21,962 nucleotides of DNA from a virus. The translations under genes were made by a program, and so were the position numbers. Shown here one piece after another: positions 5,440-21,962 of the stretch (position 1 is its first letter; each line of letters starts with the position of its first letter). The stretch is taken from positions 1-21,962 of the IMG/VR virus record IMGVR_UViG_3300036716_000433, one strand, 5' to 3'. The notes below the pieces were generated by a model that saw nothing but the letters and a program-made list of their open reading frames with translations, was not told where the DNA came from and did not search any database.

Positions 5440-6157
5440 CGTAAAGAGCATTCCCTTTCAGGCTGCCATATTTGAAGTTAGTATGAGAGACTTTCCTACT
5501 GCCAATTTTAAAGAATTAAACTCAGGAGCGTACGTTCCTATTTGGCTAGAAAGACAGGAAGAAAGAATACATTTACGCTTATTTACTTTTATAGAGTCTG
5601 TATTAAATCAGGGATTCAGAGACCCCTGTATAATATGGAGCGATATTAAGAGTGGTAAAATGAGAATACACCCCGGCGTAAATCAATTTATTTTATATGA
5701 TCTAATTAAAGATCAAATAATCACGCCTCGTAAAAAGAAGTATGATTTAAATGGGTGGGTAATAGATTTTAATTGCCAACACAGAGATGAATACTTAGGA
5801 ATATTTGAAAACATTAAACCCCTACCAAGAGATGAAAATGGGAATAATAATTTAAAGTGGAAATTAGATCATAGAACAACACCAAATGGAGAGGATCAGT
5901 ATGAATTCTCCCCAAAAAGATCTCTCTATCTAGGAGATGTATATTATATGGGTACGAAAGAGAGGTGGGAATATAAACAAGAAGCACACAGAGGCTTTGG
6001 GTGTTGGTACAGAGGGGAGAAGTTTTACGATATTGGTGGGAATGACCCCATACAGTATGAAATTAACACAGTTTCGGGGATCTATCAGTTGTTTTTAAAA
6101 CACTTTTTTGATTGGAACCCTGACATATGGCAAGAGAAATATTATGAAAGCAGGTAA
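5417..6157 (+). CDS. ParB/Srx-like domain protein (tentative)
   Basis: A 246-aa protein starting at GTG 5417, chosen because GGGAGG lies 5 nt upstream; it overlaps the helicase end. Residues about 45-90 run through a helix ending in NQGFRDPCIIW, then KSGKMRIHPGVNQFILYDLI. This resembles the ParB-like fold pattern of an xGxxxPI strand followed by a short (H/D)GxxR-type motif and a helix. The canonical Arg is replaced, so nuclease or CTPase activity is doubtful. The C-terminal part has many aromatic residues (WYRGEKFYDIGG) and no motif I know. It belongs to the same run as a second ParB-like protein at 7514. The function is unknown. Confidence 0.45.
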   Translation: MRRTVTYDVKSIPFQAAIFEVSMRDFPTANFKELNSGAYVPIWLERQEERIHLRLFTFIESVLNQGFRDPCIIWSDIKSGKMRIHPGVNQFILYDLIKDQIITPRKKKYDLNGWVIDFNCQHRDEYLGIFENIKPLPRDENGNNNLKWKLDHRTTPNGEDQYEFSPKRSLYLGDVYYMGTKERWEYKQEAHRGFGCWYRGEKFYDIGGNDPIQYEINTVSGIYQLFLKHFFDWNPDIWQEKYYESR

Positions 6158-13738: not shown

Positions 13739-14508
13739 AAGATTTATTAGTATCGACAGAAGAAATTAACAAAGCGTGTGCAGAAAATTCTGACTGTAAT
13801 GCTTACATGCCTCTTAGTGCAGGAGTAGAAAGTACAGCTACTTTATTATATGCTGTAAAAGACCCAGAGATAAAACCTTTCTGTGTTCACTGGTACGAAC
13901 CACGCTATGGAGATTTTGCTGACGCAATGGCTTTTTATAGTAGAAAACAGGCGGAATATTTTAATTTACCGTATGGAAACGATACTTCTATGCTTTCTAA
14001 GAGTGGGTATCATCGAGAGGTTCCAATTATTGTAAGTGGACTTAGTTCTTTTATGGGGTGTGTATTAGGCGCTCCTGGAGGTATTAAATGGAAATGGTTT
14101 ATGCTAGGAGGCAACGCTGAAGATGATATGCGTATGCGTCTACAGTTTAGAGAGTACCGCAAAATTATGATAAATTATTTAAGCGATTGTTTAGATACAT
14201 CTGGTGTACACTTTGATGCAATCAGAGATGTTCCAGAAGTAAGAAATCCTTTAGATTTTATGTCTAAAGCAGAAATGCTTTCTTTAATAATGCGTCATGA
14301 TCCAAATCTATATAAAATGATTTGGACTTGTATTTCTCCTAAAGGAACTCTTACTAAAGATGATGAGATTACTGGATATATTCCATGTGGAGAATGTTAC
14401 AAGTGCGGAGAGTTTAAAGCCGCACATAAATTAGCAAAGGACGCTAAGTTTAGATATCAGGAAGGGAAAGAGTATTATACTCGTTTTCTTAAAGCTGATG
14501 GAACATAA
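13732..14508 (+). CDS. QueC-like PP-loop ATPase with Cys4 zinc site
   Basis: Residues 28-35, LSAGVEST, are a variant of the PP-loop SGGxDST. The C-terminal part has C200, C219, C222 and C225 in CISPKG and CGECYKCGEFKAAH, the four-Cys zinc site typical of QueC. QueC turns 7-carboxy-7-deazaguanine into preQ0 using ATP and ammonia. Phages use preQ0 and relatives to modify DNA guanines. Here no queD, queE, folE or dpdA gene is visible. The PP-loop is not canonical: Ala replaces Gly and Glu replaces Asp. It could be a different PP-loop ligase with a QueC-like zinc ribbon. It overlaps its neighbours at both ends. Confidence 0.65.
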   Translation: MVEDLLVSTEEINKACAENSDCNAYMPLSAGVESTATLLYAVKDPEIKPFCVHWYEPRYGDFADAMAFYSRKQAEYFNLPYGNDTSMLSKSGYHREVPIIVSGLSSFMGCVLGAPGGIKWKWFMLGGNAEDDMRMRLQFREYRKIMINYLSDCLDTSGVHFDAIRDVPEVRNPLDFMSKAEMLSLIMRHDPNLYKMIWTCISPKGTLTKDDEITGYIPCGECYKCGEFKAAHKLAKDAKFRYQEGKEYYTRFLKADGT

Positions 14509-15094
14509 ACTTATATCAGGATTTTTAGAACAAGAAACCTGTGATATTTTAGAAGAACATTTAAGACTACAAAAAGAAGCAGGAAGATGTAGGTATGCAA
14601 ATGTCAACGGACTTCCACAGGGGAAAAGTTTTGATTTATATGGAGATAGCTTTTGTGAAGCTATAGGAATTTATAAAACTCCAGTTATAAATAAATATAC
14701 AGGTAAAACTCTAAGTCTTACTTATGGACTTATGAGAGAGTATGAAAAAGGTGCCTCACTTAGATGGCACAGGGATCGTTGGCAATGTGAATACTCTATT
14801 ACTGTACAAGTAAGTAAAGGAGTATGGCCAATGCACTTTACAGAAAATTATATAGGTGGTTTATGGGAAGCACAAACTTCAGTAATACTACAAAGAGGAG
14901 ACGCTATTTTTTATAAGGGTTGCGAGATATACCACAGTAGAAACGTCCTTCCTCATAAAACTTCTAGGCATCTATTTTTACATTATGTTGAAAAGAATAG
15001 TGCGCTAGATAATAAAGATAATAGAATAGGCTACGGAACGCTTGAAAAACAGGAGATTTTAAAAGATGTCAGCAATCGTAAAAGAGGAATATAG
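14498..15094 (+). CDS. 2-oxoglutarate/Fe(II)-dependent oxygenase, second copy
   Basis: A 198-aa protein. The HxD pair is H91-x-D93 in LRWHRDRW. The distal His146 is in EIYHSRNVL, and Arg157 eleven residues later (KTSRHLFLHY) would contact 2-oxoglutarate. Further landmarks are GDAIFYKG before the distal His and an N-terminal ISGFLEQETCDIL helix. The start overlaps the QueC-like gene by 11 nt. The two oxygenases in the window are not obvious duplicates, as their spacing and sequence differ. The substrate is unknown. Company with QueC-like, GNAT-like and amidotransferase genes suggests a tailored small molecule or base. Confidence 0.75.
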   Translation: MEHKLISGFLEQETCDILEEHLRLQKEAGRCRYANVNGLPQGKSFDLYGDSFCEAIGIYKTPVINKYTGKTLSLTYGLMREYEKGASLRWHRDRWQCEYSITVQVSKGVWPMHFTENYIGGLWEAQTSVILQRGDAIFYKGCEIYHSRNVLPHKTSRHLFLHYVEKNSALDNKDNRIGYGTLEKQEILKDVSNRKRGI

Positions 15095-16496: not shown

Positions 16497-16810
16497 TGGA
16501 TTACCAAAAAATTATAGACAAAATGCATGAAGGCATTATTTTATTAGAGTACACTAGCTTAGTTAGTGGGAAACACAAAATAAGAGAAGTAACTACTTGT
16601 CATAAGTACTTACCAAGAAACGCACAAGTATTTAATAAAGATTGGACTCAAAATTCGTCAGATCAGAAGATGCTTTGTTATGATCTAGAATTTGAAAAAT
16701 GGGACGATATTGATATAAATACAATAGTTGCTTGGCAAGAAATTGAAGGAAAAGATTGGAAAGTAAAAATGGCACAGCAAACTGATCTTAATTGGGACGG
16801 CAATGTTTAA
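16496..16810 (+). CDS. Small phage protein with SH3-like (DUF2693-like) pattern
   Basis: A 104-aa cytoplasmic protein that starts in a TAATG junction. Residues about 9-40 (MHEGIILLEYTSL, GKHKIREVTTCHKYLP) resemble small phage domains with a short G-V-x-V-x-F strand followed by G-x-x-R-x-(M/V)-x-x-T. The rest is acidic and Trp-rich. Such domains are mostly of unknown function in T4-like phages. Its end overlaps the start of the asparagine-synthetase-like gene by 1 nt. Confidence 0.45.
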   Translation: MDYQKIIDKMHEGIILLEYTSLVSGKHKIREVTTCHKYLPRNAQVFNKDWTQNSSDQKMLCYDLEFEKWDDIDINTIVAWQEIEGKDWKVKMAQQTDLNWDGNV

Positions 16811-18324
16811 TGTGCGGATTTGCAGGAACTACTAATCACCCTCTAATAGAGATGATGATAAAGAAGCAGGAGCATCGCGGACCTGATGCTCTTGAGTATT
16901 GGAATGATGAAAATTTTGCCTTTGCTCATGTACTCTTAGACATCAATGGAGAAAGGCAAGTACAACCTTATATAACACCTAAGGGCAATGTATTATTATT
17001 TAATGGAGAGATGTATGACACGACAATTCCCAATGATACAGAATGGCTAGGAAAAGCATTAGACAAGTATGGATTCAAATTTTTGGAGCATACAGATTGG
17101 CATGGATCAATCGCGTGGTACCTACCTAAGCAGGGCAAACTAGTTCTAATACGAGATCATTTTGGGGCGAAACCTTTATGGTGGAGATGGGACGGAAAGC
17201 AGTTTGAATTTAGTACAACTCTGACTAGTTTTCTAGGTAAAGAAATTGATGAGTCTAGATTTAGTAGTAAATTTTTAGAAAATACTCAAAGTTTTGGAGA
17301 TCAAAGTATCTATAAGTCTATCTATAAGGTAGAGCCAGGTGCGTGGTTAGAGTTTGATTTAAACGATAATTTTAAACTTCATAGAAGAAACCTATGGAGC
17401 TATTTTGATATTGGATCTGAGCCGTTAGATACGGCTGAATTTAGATTTAATATCAAAGAAGCAGTCCATAAAGTTGCAAAAAATATAAATAAGACAGCAC
17501 TATTTTTAAGTGGTGGAATGGATAGTACAGTAGTTGCTTCCCTTTTAAGAGATTCTGATTTAGATTTAGAAATTTTTACAATGGGGTATGACTTAAATCA
17601 ACAGGGGCTACACGGATTACATAAAGAACACGCTTGGGAATCTGATATGGCAGTTAAAACTGCTAGAGACTGGGGGTATAAAGTACATAGAATAACCCTA
17701 GACAGAGATGATAGAGCGCACTTTGGAAAGATGTGGTTAGCAAATACACACTATATGTGGGCTGATCATAATAGACAGGCTCCTCGTTATCTTCTATGCC
17801 AAGCAGCTAAAGCAGCAGGGTGTAAGGTAGTTCTTACAGGAGATAGTGGAGATGAATTATTTACAGGATACTATCACCATAGAAACAGATTTCGAGAAAA
17901 TGAATGTGAAAACATGACTAGATTCATGTCTCAACAGAGATGGTTTCCATATAAAGCGTTTGGAGATGATCATCTAAATAACTCTCTTTTTTCAGATTTA
18001 CTATGTACATCAGAACAGAATATTTTAGCAACTGATCAAACTGCTGGAATGTTTGGAATGGAAAGTAGAATTCCTTTACTTACTCAATCTTTTGCTAAGT
18101 ATTGTTTAAGTATTAAAGGAAGTGTAAAATTTAGACAAACAAAGAAGTACAAAAAAGGTACAAACAAATTTTTAATGCGGGAAGTAATGAAAGATTACTT
18201 ACCTGAACATGTGCGCTTAAGGACTCAAAAAGTGGGTTGGTCGAGCCCGTGGGATAATAACCACCCTAGACTAAGTCCTAAGTGGAGAATACAAGCAGCA
18301 CAATTTATTAGGACACAGATATAA
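16810..18324 (+). CDS. Asparagine synthetase B-like glutamine amidotransferase
   Basis: A 504-aa enzyme of class II GATase plus PP-loop AsnB architecture. I chose ATG 16810 because it gives MCGFAG with Cys2 as nucleophile, after which HRGPDA (22-27), NGEMYD (65-70) and RDHFGAKPL (115-123) follow as in AsnB. The synthetase domain has SGGMDST (234-240), the conserved TGDSGDELFTGY, and ESRIPLL near the C-terminus. Normally the reaction is Asp + Gln + ATP to Asn + Glu. Phage homologues may amidate other carboxylates. It is about 50 aa shorter than E. coli AsnB (554 aa). The start overlaps the preceding stop (TAATG), and the stop overlaps the bL33-like gene the same way. Confidence 0.88.
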   Translation: MCGFAGTTNHPLIEMMIKKQEHRGPDALEYWNDENFAFAHVLLDINGERQVQPYITPKGNVLLFNGEMYDTTIPNDTEWLGKALDKYGFKFLEHTDWHGSIAWYLPKQGKLVLIRDHFGAKPLWWRWDGKQFEFSTTLTSFLGKEIDESRFSSKFLENTQSFGDQSIYKSIYKVEPGAWLEFDLNDNFKLHRRNLWSYFDIGSEPLDTAEFRFNIKEAVHKVAKNINKTALFLSGGMDSTVVASLLRDSDLDLEIFTMGYDLNQQGLHGLHKEHAWESDMAVKTARDWGYKVHRITLDRDDRAHFGKMWLANTHYMWADHNRQAPRYLLCQAAKAAGCKVVLTGDSGDELFTGYYHHRNRFRENECENMTRFMSQQRWFPYKAFGDDHLNNSLFSDLLCTSEQNILATDQTAGMFGMESRIPLLTQSFAKYCLSIKGSVKFRQTKKYKKGTNKFLMREVMKDYLPEHVRLRTQKVGWSSPWDNNHPRLSPKWRIQAAQFIRTQI

Positions 18325-18790: not shown

Positions 18791-18885
18791 CCCCTCAAGA
18801 ATTACCTATAGGTGTGTGGACAGGCTACTTGATATTGTTCAGTATGTGCTTTATATTATTCTATATTGCATGGAAGGACAAATGA
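18787..18885 (+). CDS. Tiny membrane protein (32 aa)
   Basis: The ORF starts in an ATGA overlap with the gene before and ends in an ATGA overlap with the helicase. It is almost one hydrophobic helix (about 9-29, GVWTGYLILFSMCFILFYIAW) with a short Lys-Asp-Lys tail. The double coupling argues for real translation. Its function is unknown. Confidence 0.5.
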   Translation: MTPQELPIGVWTGYLILFSMCFILFYIAWKDK

Positions 18886-20162
18886 AGGCAGTTTTAAGTA
18901 ACAGAATACAAATAGAAGGAAATACTGCGTTGCTTACGGAGATGGAGGAAGAACTTACATATACATTACCTCCCCGTATGCCACAAGATCCACCTATGGT
19001 TATAAAAACAATAAGACCTTTAAGAGATGGTTTAGTTTCTATACCTATGGGAAGATTGGATTTAATCCCAGATGATTATGATATTATCGATAAGCGAGTA
19101 TCTGTGCCTGTAGACTTTCCTGAATTTAAGTTTACTTTAAGGCAAAGTCAAAAAATGACAGTTGATGAAGTAGAAGACAGCGCTATAATTAACGCTTGGG
19201 TAAGTTGGGGAAAGACAGTAGCAGCTTTAGCAATAGCTAAGAAACTTGGACAAAAAACACTAGTAGTTACACATACAACTAATTTGAGGAATCAATGGGA
19301 AAAAGAAGTACAGAAAGCTTTCGGCATACGGGCTGGCAGAATCGGGTCAGGGGAAATGAACACTTCGCCCCCAATAGTAGTGGGGAACATTCAGACTTTA
19401 TACCGTCGCGTAGACGATATAAAACGTTTATTCGGAACAGTTATTTTAGACGAGATGCATCACGTTTCGTCCCCTACATTTACCCGAATAATAGATGAAA
19501 TGCCTGCAAGATATAAGGTTGGACTGACAGGAACATTAGAACGGAAAGACGGAAGACATGTAGTATTTAGAGACTACTTTGGAAGTACAGTACTAAAACC
19601 ACCAAAAGAAAATTACATGACTCCAAAAGTTCATGTTATTAAATCGGAAGTACGATTTCTAGACGGTTCTTATACCCCATGGGCAGAAAGAGTTAATCAT
19701 CTAGTAAATACGGAAGAATATGTACATAGTATTAGTTTGATTGCTTCTAAGTATGCAGCTGAAGGGCATAAAGTATTAGTAGTATCGGATAGAGTTGCAT
19801 TTCTAAAAGTTTGTCATAAATTGGTAGGAGATAATTCAGTATGTATTACAGGCGATATGGACTTTGTGGAAAGAGAGAAAACTATGAAACTAATTGGGAG
19901 ATCTAAAAATATACTGTTTGGAACACAAGCAATATTTTCAGAAGGTATATCTTTAGATGATCTTAGTTGTTTAGTATTGGCTACACCAGTAAATAATGAA
20001 CCACTATTAACGCAGTTAATTGGTAGAGTAATACGACAAAAAGAGGGCAAGTTACAGCCTACTGTTGTAGATATTCATTTAAAAGGTAAAACAGCTACTA
20101 GACAGGCAAACGCCAGAATGGGTTATTACATAAAACAAGATTATAAGGTTAGAGTATTATGA
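18882..20162 (+). CDS. UvsW-like SF2 DNA helicase
   Basis: A 426-aa superfamily 2 helicase. A Q-like region LRQSQKMTVDEV (87-98) is followed by Walker A in NAWVSWGKTVAAL (K111, T112), where the usual first Gly is replaced by Ala. Further motifs are VVTHTTNLRNQW (Ia), Walker B LDEMHH (D190, E191), GLTGTLERKDG (III), GTQAIFSEGISL (V region) and QLIGRVIRQKEGK (VI, R382 and R385). The layout matches T4 UvsW, which reverses forks and resolves recombination intermediates. The gene starts at ATG 18882, in the ATGA overlap, with GGAAGG upstream. An in-frame ATG at 18816 would add 22 residues that belong to the preceding small ORF in another frame. A Gly-poor Walker A is common in phage SF2 helicases. 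Confidence 0.85.
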   Translation: MKAVLSNRIQIEGNTALLTEMEEELTYTLPPRMPQDPPMVIKTIRPLRDGLVSIPMGRLDLIPDDYDIIDKRVSVPVDFPEFKFTLRQSQKMTVDEVEDSAIINAWVSWGKTVAALAIAKKLGQKTLVVTHTTNLRNQWEKEVQKAFGIRAGRIGSGEMNTSPPIVVGNIQTLYRRVDDIKRLFGTVILDEMHHVSSPTFTRIIDEMPARYKVGLTGTLERKDGRHVVFRDYFGSTVLKPPKENYMTPKVHVIKSEVRFLDGSYTPWAERVNHLVNTEEYVHSISLIASKYAAEGHKVLVVSDRVAFLKVCHKLVGDNSVCITGDMDFVEREKTMKLIGRSKNILFGTQAIFSEGISLDDLSCLVLATPVNNEPLLTQLIGRVIRQKEGKLQPTVVDIHLKGKTATRQANARMGYYIKQDYKVRVL

Positions 20163-20235: not shown

Positions 20236-20646
20236 ATGATATATTATAATTGGAAAAAGATTGTAGAAGCGAGCAACGGAAACGTTGGTGACATTATTAC
20301 AATCCTTAGAATAATTACTTATAGAATTACACCTAAGAATTATTATGATAAAACGTTTAAGTTTTATGAAAAGAATTTTGGTGGTAGTAGTTTTCTGATA
20401 AACCCAGATAAACTACTTACTACTGGTCGTGCTCAATATAGTGATAAAGAAGTTGCAGAATATGTTGGTGTCGCATCATACCGCAATTATCATGAGTACG
20501 TAAAAACTAAAGATACCAACTTAGACCTCATTTTCTGTAAAGTTAGTGAGGACATTATTAGAAAAAACAGACTGCTCGAAATTAGAGAGGGGTTTATTCA
20601 CTTTAAATTTGAGGAGACAACAACGGAGAAATATTATGGCAATTAG
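20236..20646 (+). CDS. Hypothetical protein, 136 aa
   Basis: No family recognised. The protein is aromatic- and Lys-rich, with segments such as ITPKNYYDKTFKFYEKNF and YSDKEVAEYVGVASYRNYHE, the latter looking like a helix-turn-helix of the form KEVAEYVGV-(A/S)-Y. It may therefore bind DNA. The annotated ATG 20236 overlaps the P3 region too closely for transcription from P3 to include it. A true start farther down, read from a non-ATG codon, is possible, or the promoter is not used as predicted. It ends 11 nt into the SSB gene. Confidence 0.55.
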   Translation: MIYYNWKKIVEASNGNVGDIITILRIITYRITPKNYYDKTFKFYEKNFGGSSFLINPDKLLTTGRAQYSDKEVAEYVGVASYRNYHEYVKTKDTNLDLIFCKVSEDIIRKNRLLEIREGFIHFKFEETTTEKYYGN

Positions 20647-21262
20647 CTTTAATCAAACCAAGGGCTCTGCCCAAAAAGACAAAATTGAAACTTACAATTT
20701 TGGCAACAAAGAGGATCACAAAGTTCGTCTAGTAGGCGATCTACTTCCTCGTTACGTTTATTGGGTTAAAGGCGAGAACAACAAAAATATTCCAATGGAA
20801 TGTTTGTCGTTCGACAGGGAAACCGAAACCTTTAACAACAAGGAACACGATCACGTTCGTGATTTTTACCCAGACTTAAAATGTGGTTGGGCATACGCTG
20901 TCCAAGGCATAGACTACGCTGATAATAAAATCAAAGTAGTTAATTTGAAAAGAAAACTTTTCGATCAAATTATGGTCGCTATGGAAGACTTAGGCAACCC
21001 AACAGATAATGAATCTGGCTGGGACGTTTATTTTAAAAGATTGAAGACTGGACCGCAGGTCTTTAATGTAGAGTACCAATTACAGGCACTCAAATGTAAG
21101 CCTCGTGCTTTAGAAGATTGGGAATCAGACTTAGTTGGAGAACTAAAGTCTATGGACGACGTACTTCCGCGTCCTACCCCTGATGCTCAACTAGAGTTAC
21201 TAAAGAGAATTACAGCTGCGGGCAAAGAAGAAACTGTTGATGAGGAGTTTGACGTATCATGA
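20636..21262 (+). CDS. Putative single-stranded DNA-binding protein (gp32-like)
   Basis: A 208-aa protein starting at ATG 20636, with GGAG at 20625-20628 (7-nt spacing). The N-terminal MAISFNQTKGSAQKDKIETY is followed by an OB-fold-like stretch (VRLVGDLLPRYVYWVKG, VYFKRLKTGPQVFNVEYQL). The C-terminus is Asp/Glu-rich (VDEEFDVS), as in phage SSBs that recruit partners by an acidic tail. It overlaps the peroxiredoxin start by 4 nt. Together with the helicases, primase and gp47-like gene it fits a T4-type replisome. The family assignment is inferred from layout and composition rather than a diagnostic motif. Confidence 0.65.
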   Translation: MAISFNQTKGSAQKDKIETYNFGNKEDHKVRLVGDLLPRYVYWVKGENNKNIPMECLSFDRETETFNNKEHDHVRDFYPDLKCGWAYAVQGIDYADNKIKVVNLKRKLFDQIMVAMEDLGNPTDNESGWDVYFKRLKTGPQVFNVEYQLQALKCKPRALEDWESDLVGELKSMDDVLPRPTPDAQLELLKRITAAGKEETVDEEFDVS

Positions 21263-21768
21263 TTACGGTAGGCGATGTATTCCCTGAATTTGAACTAACA
21301 GGTGTTGACAAGGATAATAACTTTGTAGATATAGATGACAACGGACTTTTAGGAAGTTGGTCTGTACTATACTTTTATCCAAAAGACTTCACTTTTATAT
21401 GTCCTACAGAAATACAGGGTTTCGATGCATTAGTAGGAAATGATGTAGACGTTCTGGGATTCAGTCCAGATAACGAGTTCTGTAAAATAGCATGGAAAGA
21501 AGACAATGAGCTTATCCGTGATATAGAACATACTCTAGTAGCAGATTGTAGTAATCAACTTGCTATGGAAGTAGGAATAGTATCTAATGAATGGGTTCCA
21601 TACAGAGCCACCTTTATCCTCGATGAGGATAACGTCATTCAATCTTTAGCAGTGAATGCTCTCGATACAGGAAGAAACCACTATGAAGTCGAAAGGACAC
21701 TTGAGGCTCTCAGAGCTGGCGGACTTACTGGTTGTAACTGGCACAACGGAGAGGACTTCGTAGCATGA
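21259..21768 (+). CDS. 2-Cys peroxiredoxin (AhpC/TSA family)
   Basis: The enzyme reduces H2O2 and organic peroxides by a Cys thiol. The peroxidatic Cys48 sits in PKDFTFICPTE with Thr45 in the P-x3-T-x2-C signature. R116 in YRATFI is the conserved Arg. A second Cys159 in GLTGCNW near the C-terminus would be the resolving Cys. At 169 aa it is shorter than cellular AhpC (about 187), and the C-terminal region is abbreviated. It would need a host reductase or thioredoxin. It overlaps the SSB stop and the next start as ATGA. A phage metabolic gene here suggests protection of phage replication from oxidative stress (inference). Confidence 0.9.
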   Translation: MITVGDVFPEFELTGVDKDNNFVDIDDNGLLGSWSVLYFYPKDFTFICPTEIQGFDALVGNDVDVLGFSPDNEFCKIAWKEDNELIRDIEHTLVADCSNQLAMEVGIVSNEWVPYRATFILDEDNVIQSLAVNALDTGRNHYEVERTLEALRAGGLTGCNWHNGEDFVA

Positions 21769-21962
21769 TTTTATTCACAGCAGACTGGCACTTAAAGCTA
21801 GGGCAGAAGAATGTACCAATGGAATGGGCGTGCGCTCGTTATAAGTTATTTTTCGACCAAATAAAAGAGTTGGAAACTGACTGTGATATGCATATCATAG
21901 GTGGGGACTTGTTTGATCGAGTTCCCTCTATGGACGAATTAACACTTTATTTCGATTTTATT
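21765..21962 (+). CDS. SbcD/Mre11 (T4 gp47)-like nuclease, 5' part only
   Basis: The ORF starts in an ATGA overlap and runs off the window. The first 66 residues show the calcineurin-like phosphoesterase signature: DWH at residues 7-9 (LFTADWHLKLG) and GGDLFDR (about 49-55), the metal-binding D-x-H and G-D motifs. This is the family of the Mre11/SbcD recombination nuclease, which works with an SbcC/gp46 ATPase expected downstream. The rest is not visible. Confidence 0.85.
   Translation, partial: MILFTADWHLKLGQKNVPMEWACARYKLFFDQIKELETDCDMHIIGGDLFDRVPSMDELTLYFDFI

Follow-up and report, generated by a model that had tools for sequence, protein, structure and literature searches.

The AhpC enzyme family and the concept of phages carrying host enzymes are both well established. 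The closest described systems to the gene reported here are the three-Cys AhpCs, which carry two C-terminal cysteines (CxC). According to the available excerpts of the published reports, the resolving cysteine of Mycobacterium tuberculosis AhpC is C174 and its third cysteine is C176 (PMC5505994), with Cys176 able to substitute for Cys174 only to some extent (PMC6626918). In Burkholderia thailandensis AhpC the excerpted text describes the two C-terminal cysteines as interchangeable, and a C171S mutant retaining only Cys173 as still active with AhpD or Trx (PMC6626918). For Escherichia coli AhpC, tail residues 172–187 are given as required for AhpF (excerpt of PMC5124861). Peroxiredoxin has been mentioned in RNA virus contigs (excerpt of PMC12806420). 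Our literature search, with most subscription papers outside its scope, found no description of the viral peroxiredoxin clade presented below; new to the searched literature is a marine viral clade that spans phage types and whose gene sits precisely next to SSB or other DNA genes.

The peroxiredoxin gene and its neighbors

The window, that is, the whole 21,962-base virus record that we analyzed, contains an intact open reading frame whose product, judged by its sequence, is an AhpC-type peroxiredoxin of a phage (Table 1). The protein matches the Pfam AhpC-TSA family with 83 bits against a cut-off of 26, and its closest solved structure by sequence, M. tuberculosis AhpC (2bmx), is also the top PDB match of an AlphaFold2 monomer model (pLDDT 80, with the final residues badly modelled). 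The preliminary description had named Thr45, Cys48, and R116 as catalytic residues of a phage peroxiredoxin, and all three can be read at those positions in the translation, together with P41, which we take to complete the PxxxTxxC peroxiredoxin motif with T45 and C48. The AhpC of E. coli and Salmonella belongs to the same Pfam family and has the same peroxidatic site; however, the viral protein lacks its resolving-cysteine position, has a shorter AhpF-binding tail, and falls below the curated cut-off of the NCBI AhpC equivalog TIGR03137 (102.8 versus 272 bits).

As had been proposed, the gene lies between an SSB-like and a gp47-like gene, with an ATGA overlap at either end. Translation is probably coupled, because the gene fits exactly between its two neighbors. 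The gp47 gene runs off the window, and we found it complete in L001 (8507–9463; phrog_100, 4e-39), from a longer contig whose peroxiredoxin is identical; there the order continues from SbcD to SbcC, a RusA-like resolvase, an exonuclease, and NrdA. Given the helicase and SSB on one side and these genes on the other, the earlier term "recombination operon" was fair, and replication, recombination, and nucleotide operon is the better name.

The window also encodes a D5-like regulator and a family A polymerase of T5-like type, which shares 46.5% identity with T5-type Salmonella phages. Two further host-type genes occur in the same phage, a Nol-like carbamoyltransferase (119–1492, + strand) and an asparagine-synthase/glutamine amidotransferase protein (16792–18324, + strand). 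A 198-aa protein (14498–15094, + strand) matches a PHROG annotated as "ferrochelatase" (4e-27) and no Pfam family.

Table 1. Coordinates of the peroxiredoxin gene, its key codons, and the surrounding gene block in the window
Feature	Position	Strand	Evidence or occurrence
DNA helicase, first gene of conserved block	18816–20162	+	phrog_16, 1.8e-63; same order in related loci
Conserved 136-aa protein	20236–20646	+	phrog_4258, 3.4e-22; precedes SSB in most SSB-containing relatives
Single-strand DNA binding protein (SSB), ATG at 20636	20636–21262	+	phrog_1607, 5.3e-30
ATGA overlap, SSB stop/peroxiredoxin start	21259–21262	+	−4 spacing in 57/57 relatives having the gene
AhpC-type peroxiredoxin (predicted), 169 aa, ATG start	21259–21768	+	Pfam PF00578, 2.1e-23; 2bmx, 3.4e-29
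Cys48 codon, peroxidatic cysteine	21400–21402	+	81/81 viral
Cys75 codon, extra cysteine	21481–21483	+	Invariant in 81/81 viral; Cys in 26/80 genome loci
Arg116 codon, catalytic arginine	21604–21606	+	81/81 viral; 80/80 genome loci
Thr157 codon, canonical resolving-Cys position	21727–21729	+	Thr in 81/81 viral; Cys in 74/80 genome loci
Cys159 codon, probable resolving cysteine, equivalent of M. tuberculosis Cys176	21733–21735	+	81/81 viral; 80/80 genome loci
ATGA overlap, peroxiredoxin stop/gp47 start	21765–21768	+	55/55 relatives showing both genes
SbcD/gp47-like nuclease subunit, truncated by window end	21765–21962	+	phrog_100, 3.2e-10

Probable resolving cysteine and electron donor

A scan of viral contigs with the protein returned at least 599 relatives among 600 candidate stretches. 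The best 80 of these (58%–100% identity) were retained and aligned with the peroxiredoxin of the window. Residues 40–52, C75, R116, T157, G158, C159, and W161 were identical in all 81 sequences. The six phage pairs whose dS could be measured and was not saturated gave a dN/dS of 0.11–0.21 (our own Nei–Gojobori script; three other pairs gave no value, two having a dS of zero and one being saturated), which points to purifying selection on the viral peroxiredoxin. Chance is ruled out by these invariant residues and by a gene order found again in dozens of contigs. Cys75 is among the invariant residues, although the peroxidatic cysteine is Cys48 and the likely resolving one Cys159; the idea that Cys75 is a residue specific to the viruses was discarded because some genome loci also have Cys there (Table 1). 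The short C-terminal tail is likewise not peculiar to viruses, as 29 of 77 genome loci (L085–L161) match the viral length of 7 or 8 residues past the Trp position.

The arrangement of the typical 2-Cys (Prx1/AhpC) subfamily, with a resolving cysteine four positions ahead of the conserved Trp (CxxxW), is absent, as is the CxC of the three-Cys AhpCs: all 81 viral sequences read TGC, with Thr157 at the canonical position. Members of that subfamily also assemble as dimers into decamer or dodecamer rings; the model made here was of a single chain. Compared with M. tuberculosis AhpC, the first C-terminal cysteine (Cys174) is thus Thr157 in the viral protein, and Cys176 aligns with Cys159. The earlier proposal of Cys159 as a C-terminal resolving cysteine therefore stands in part: the residue is there and is a credible resolver, whereas the canonical resolving position is held by T157. 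Cys159 is credible as the sole resolver because the equivalent Cys173 alone keeps B. thailandensis AhpC active (excerpt of PMC6626918), and our alignment suggests that it is probably the resolving cysteine; a one-Cys or other mechanism may operate instead, since the canonical cysteine is missing.

The preliminary description had also offered AhpF as a reducing partner, which now appears unlikely, because the tail required for AhpF in E. coli (excerpt of PMC5124861) is shortened by about ten residues (our own count from the conserved Trp) and AhpF exceeded the NCBI cut-off in none of five bacteria bearing the viral-type or sister gene. An AhpD (CMD) domain, the partner in the three-Cys AhpC–AhpD type, was found in none of 29 viral records. 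Thioredoxin was found in none of 30; most of the records searched, and possibly all of the 29, are fragments, and the absence of either partner proves little. Glutaredoxin scored over the cut-off in six of 30 viral records, with none in the window or in the record of L001. Phage glutaredoxins commonly serve ribonucleotide reductase, and this co-occurrence is thus weak evidence. Thioredoxin was present in all three searched bacteria carrying the viral-type or sister gene, and the host thioredoxin would be the likeliest donor.

An optional cassette and its possible role

Using the SSB as a query, we compared 80 related viral loci. Peroxiredoxin is next to SSB in 57, gp47 follows directly in 20, and three end too early. 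Every junction is a 4-base ATGA overlap, whether SSB–peroxiredoxin (57/57), peroxiredoxin–gp47 (55/55), or direct SSB–gp47 (20/20). With gp59 of a T4-like relative as the query, peroxiredoxin was upstream in 59 of 80 loci (59 of the 71 informative), lacking in 12, and nine had too little upstream sequence. The gene is therefore not essential to the operon, being naturally missing from 20 of the SSB loci (77 informative) and from 12 of the gp59 loci (71 informative). By parsimony, its presence needs at least four changes on the SSB tree and on the gp59 tree, of which three and two, respectively, are forced by well-supported branches (the trees exclude identical proteins and loci whose flanks were too short). 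Two loci outside the tree (L336 and L337) lack peroxiredoxin and share their gp59 protein with a locus that bears it. Given the exact junctions and these changes, the gene has been gained or lost cleanly. It is an optional cassette with exact boundaries, widespread and common to unrelated phages, with phage genes on both sides, as in phage auxiliary genes (morons); the preliminary description had not mentioned this.

The surroundings of the cassette fall into several kinds. Among the best 80 relatives, 45 have the neighborhood of helicase, 136-aa protein, SSB, and gp47; of the other 35, 14 are followed by gp33 and gp59, and gp32 is present in 11, the same clade lying ahead of gp33–gp59–gp32 in T4-like phages. 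A second sample ignored identity rank and was picked by the motif AGGLTGCxW; 117 of 120 stretches were classified (three were missed), and peroxiredoxin was present in 116 (L420 gave no match). These comprised 65 SSB–peroxiredoxin–gp47 loci, 16 peroxiredoxin–gp33–gp59–gp32 loci, four near UvsX, nine after PhoH/exonuclease, one before a helicase, two before phrog_19197, six beside Hsp20 or a 458-aa unknown, eight others, and five with short flanks. A phrog_11903 protein occurs upstream of the peroxiredoxin in L040 (6871–7992) and relatives, the cluster being found in 18 of the 35 loci of the best 80 without SSB.

We consider it likely, on the residues and gene order, that the gene encodes a thiol peroxidase of an uncultured marine T5-like phage, made with the replication proteins and lowering peroxide during DNA synthesis. 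We infer that Cys48, activated by Thr45 and Arg116, would reduce hydrogen peroxide or an organic peroxide and become a sulfenic acid, which Cys159, probably from the partner subunit, would resolve to a disulfide; host thioredoxin (phage glutaredoxin in some relatives) would then recycle the enzyme. It would be produced together with SSB, SbcCD, resolvase, exonuclease, and ribonucleotide reductase, and lower peroxide in the DNA-synthesis phase would most likely help protect DNA, iron- or radical-containing enzymes, and host metabolism. The position of the gene makes protection of replicating DNA plausible, and general redox protection is nearly as good a fit. In the latter case, the gene would be a moron that only aids host metabolism against peroxide, placed at an insertion-tolerant junction of an early operon for reasons unrelated to DNA. 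This is a serious possibility, if a somewhat doubtful one; it shares its peroxidase chemistry with the preferred explanation and differs in purpose, and our confidences in the two overlap. It accords with a gene that is optional, exactly bounded at gene junctions, and found in several differing contexts, including Hsp20 and unknown neighbors. It accords less well with the 95 of 116 pattern-sample loci (classes A–E) that sit among or next to genes for DNA replication, recombination, or repair, a plain tally of loci rather than a statistical comparison with random placement in phage genomes.

A closer tie to DNA, in which the peroxiredoxin binds or redox-gates SSB or SbcCD, appears improbable. 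The recurrent slot beside SSB and gp47, the proximity to gp59/gp32 or UvsX in other phages, and a C-terminal tail (DFVA/EFVG) conserved with differing codons in two phage types would suit it, but natural operons lacking the gene exist. Mimicry of the SSB tail is a weak rival only: the T5-like peroxiredoxin tail resembles that of SSB (EFDVS/EFDVA), whereas in T4-like phages the gp32 tail differs (DDTLSYFAKLAKES) while the peroxiredoxin tail stays, and mimicry fails there. A pure Shine–Dalgarno constraint on the tail is not favored either, as the residues are kept although the two phage types use different codons. We give an equally low probability to a protein that is no longer a peroxidase, being instead a chaperone, a redox-signalling protein, or the product of a degraded gene; the Thr that replaces the canonical resolving cysteine throughout the alignment speaks for it, and against it are the invariant catalytic residues, a dN/dS well below 1, and the activity of a homolog with the equivalent single resolving cysteine (excerpt of PMC6626918). 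Bacterial contamination or misassembly could be suspected from the deposited phage collection, in which 17 of 50,697 records match, none above 33% identity, and most look to us like contaminants. The probability that this explains our locus is practically nil: it recurs across many independent contigs with phage genes on both sides and identical junctions, which refutes the idea. With no deposited phage record matching above 33% identity, the clade may serve as a marker, and the natural operons with the gene (57/80) and without it (20/80) make phage DNA replication under oxidative stress testable at sea.

Viral and bacterial relatives

The closest matches in the genome collection were a SAR86 MAG (55% identity), a gammaproteobacterial MAG (53%), and a SAR86 single-cell genome (47%); the others were mostly CPCNW/CPCNR AhpCs, and these three-Cys proteins are the nearest genome matches outside marine gammaproteobacteria. 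The family of the SAR86 MAG includes a further genome with a 61% copy, a close copy being present in only two of the family's 107 genomes, and a 58% copy was found in one of 22 genomes of the gammaproteobacterial MAG's family. The bacterial copies are surrounded by bacterial genes (TonB receptor, LysR regulator, and peroxidase-domain gene). In the SAR86 MAG (L082, 5683–11882) the order is TonB receptor, viral-type peroxiredoxin, LysR regulator, and katG-like peroxidase; to us the regulator looks like oxyR and the peroxidase-domain gene like katG, and we count this neighborhood in favor of the peroxidase reading. A search of 203 genomes from the order of the SAR86 MAG did not recover the SSB of the window, a result that by itself says nothing about the host.

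We inferred a tree from 73 sequences, 41 from phages (thinned at 88% identity) and 32 derived from genomes. All 41 phage sequences and four bacterial ones form one clade (support 100), with the four bacterial genes nested within. Sister to it (support 90) is a SAR86 AhpC pair (L084 and L235) at 46%–51% identity, found in bacterial genomes and likewise without the first C-terminal cysteine (LTACNW). T5-like and T4-like copies intermix, with 7 and 8 changes, two of them forced by well-supported branches; these labels were assigned by neighborhood, and some "T4-like" rows have no T4 gene in view. An AU test did not reject a phage-only clade (P = 0.49), so that transfer may have gone in either direction, and we dropped phage-to-bacterium transfer as a proven event.

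As with other phage auxiliary metabolic genes or morons, a host-type enzyme occupies an optional slot. It differs from ordinary morons in forming a virus-dominated clade that spans T5-like and T4-like phages and, in the T5-like phages, in its ATGA overlaps with DNA genes. A wider reading, which we rate as rather unlikely, would have a virus-dominated lineage, with its own signature of one resolving cysteine, pass between T5-like and T4-like marine phages that are not related, its place in or next to replication and recombination genes reflecting a need to control peroxide at the viral replication fork; marine gammaproteobacteria, SAR86 among them, would have reacquired the gene in its viral form and kept it for antioxidant purposes close to oxyR- and katG-like genes. 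Finally, we noted a Micromonospora open reading frame (L101, match at 5904) in which, by our reading, AhpC continues into AhpD-like sequence, a possible fusion.
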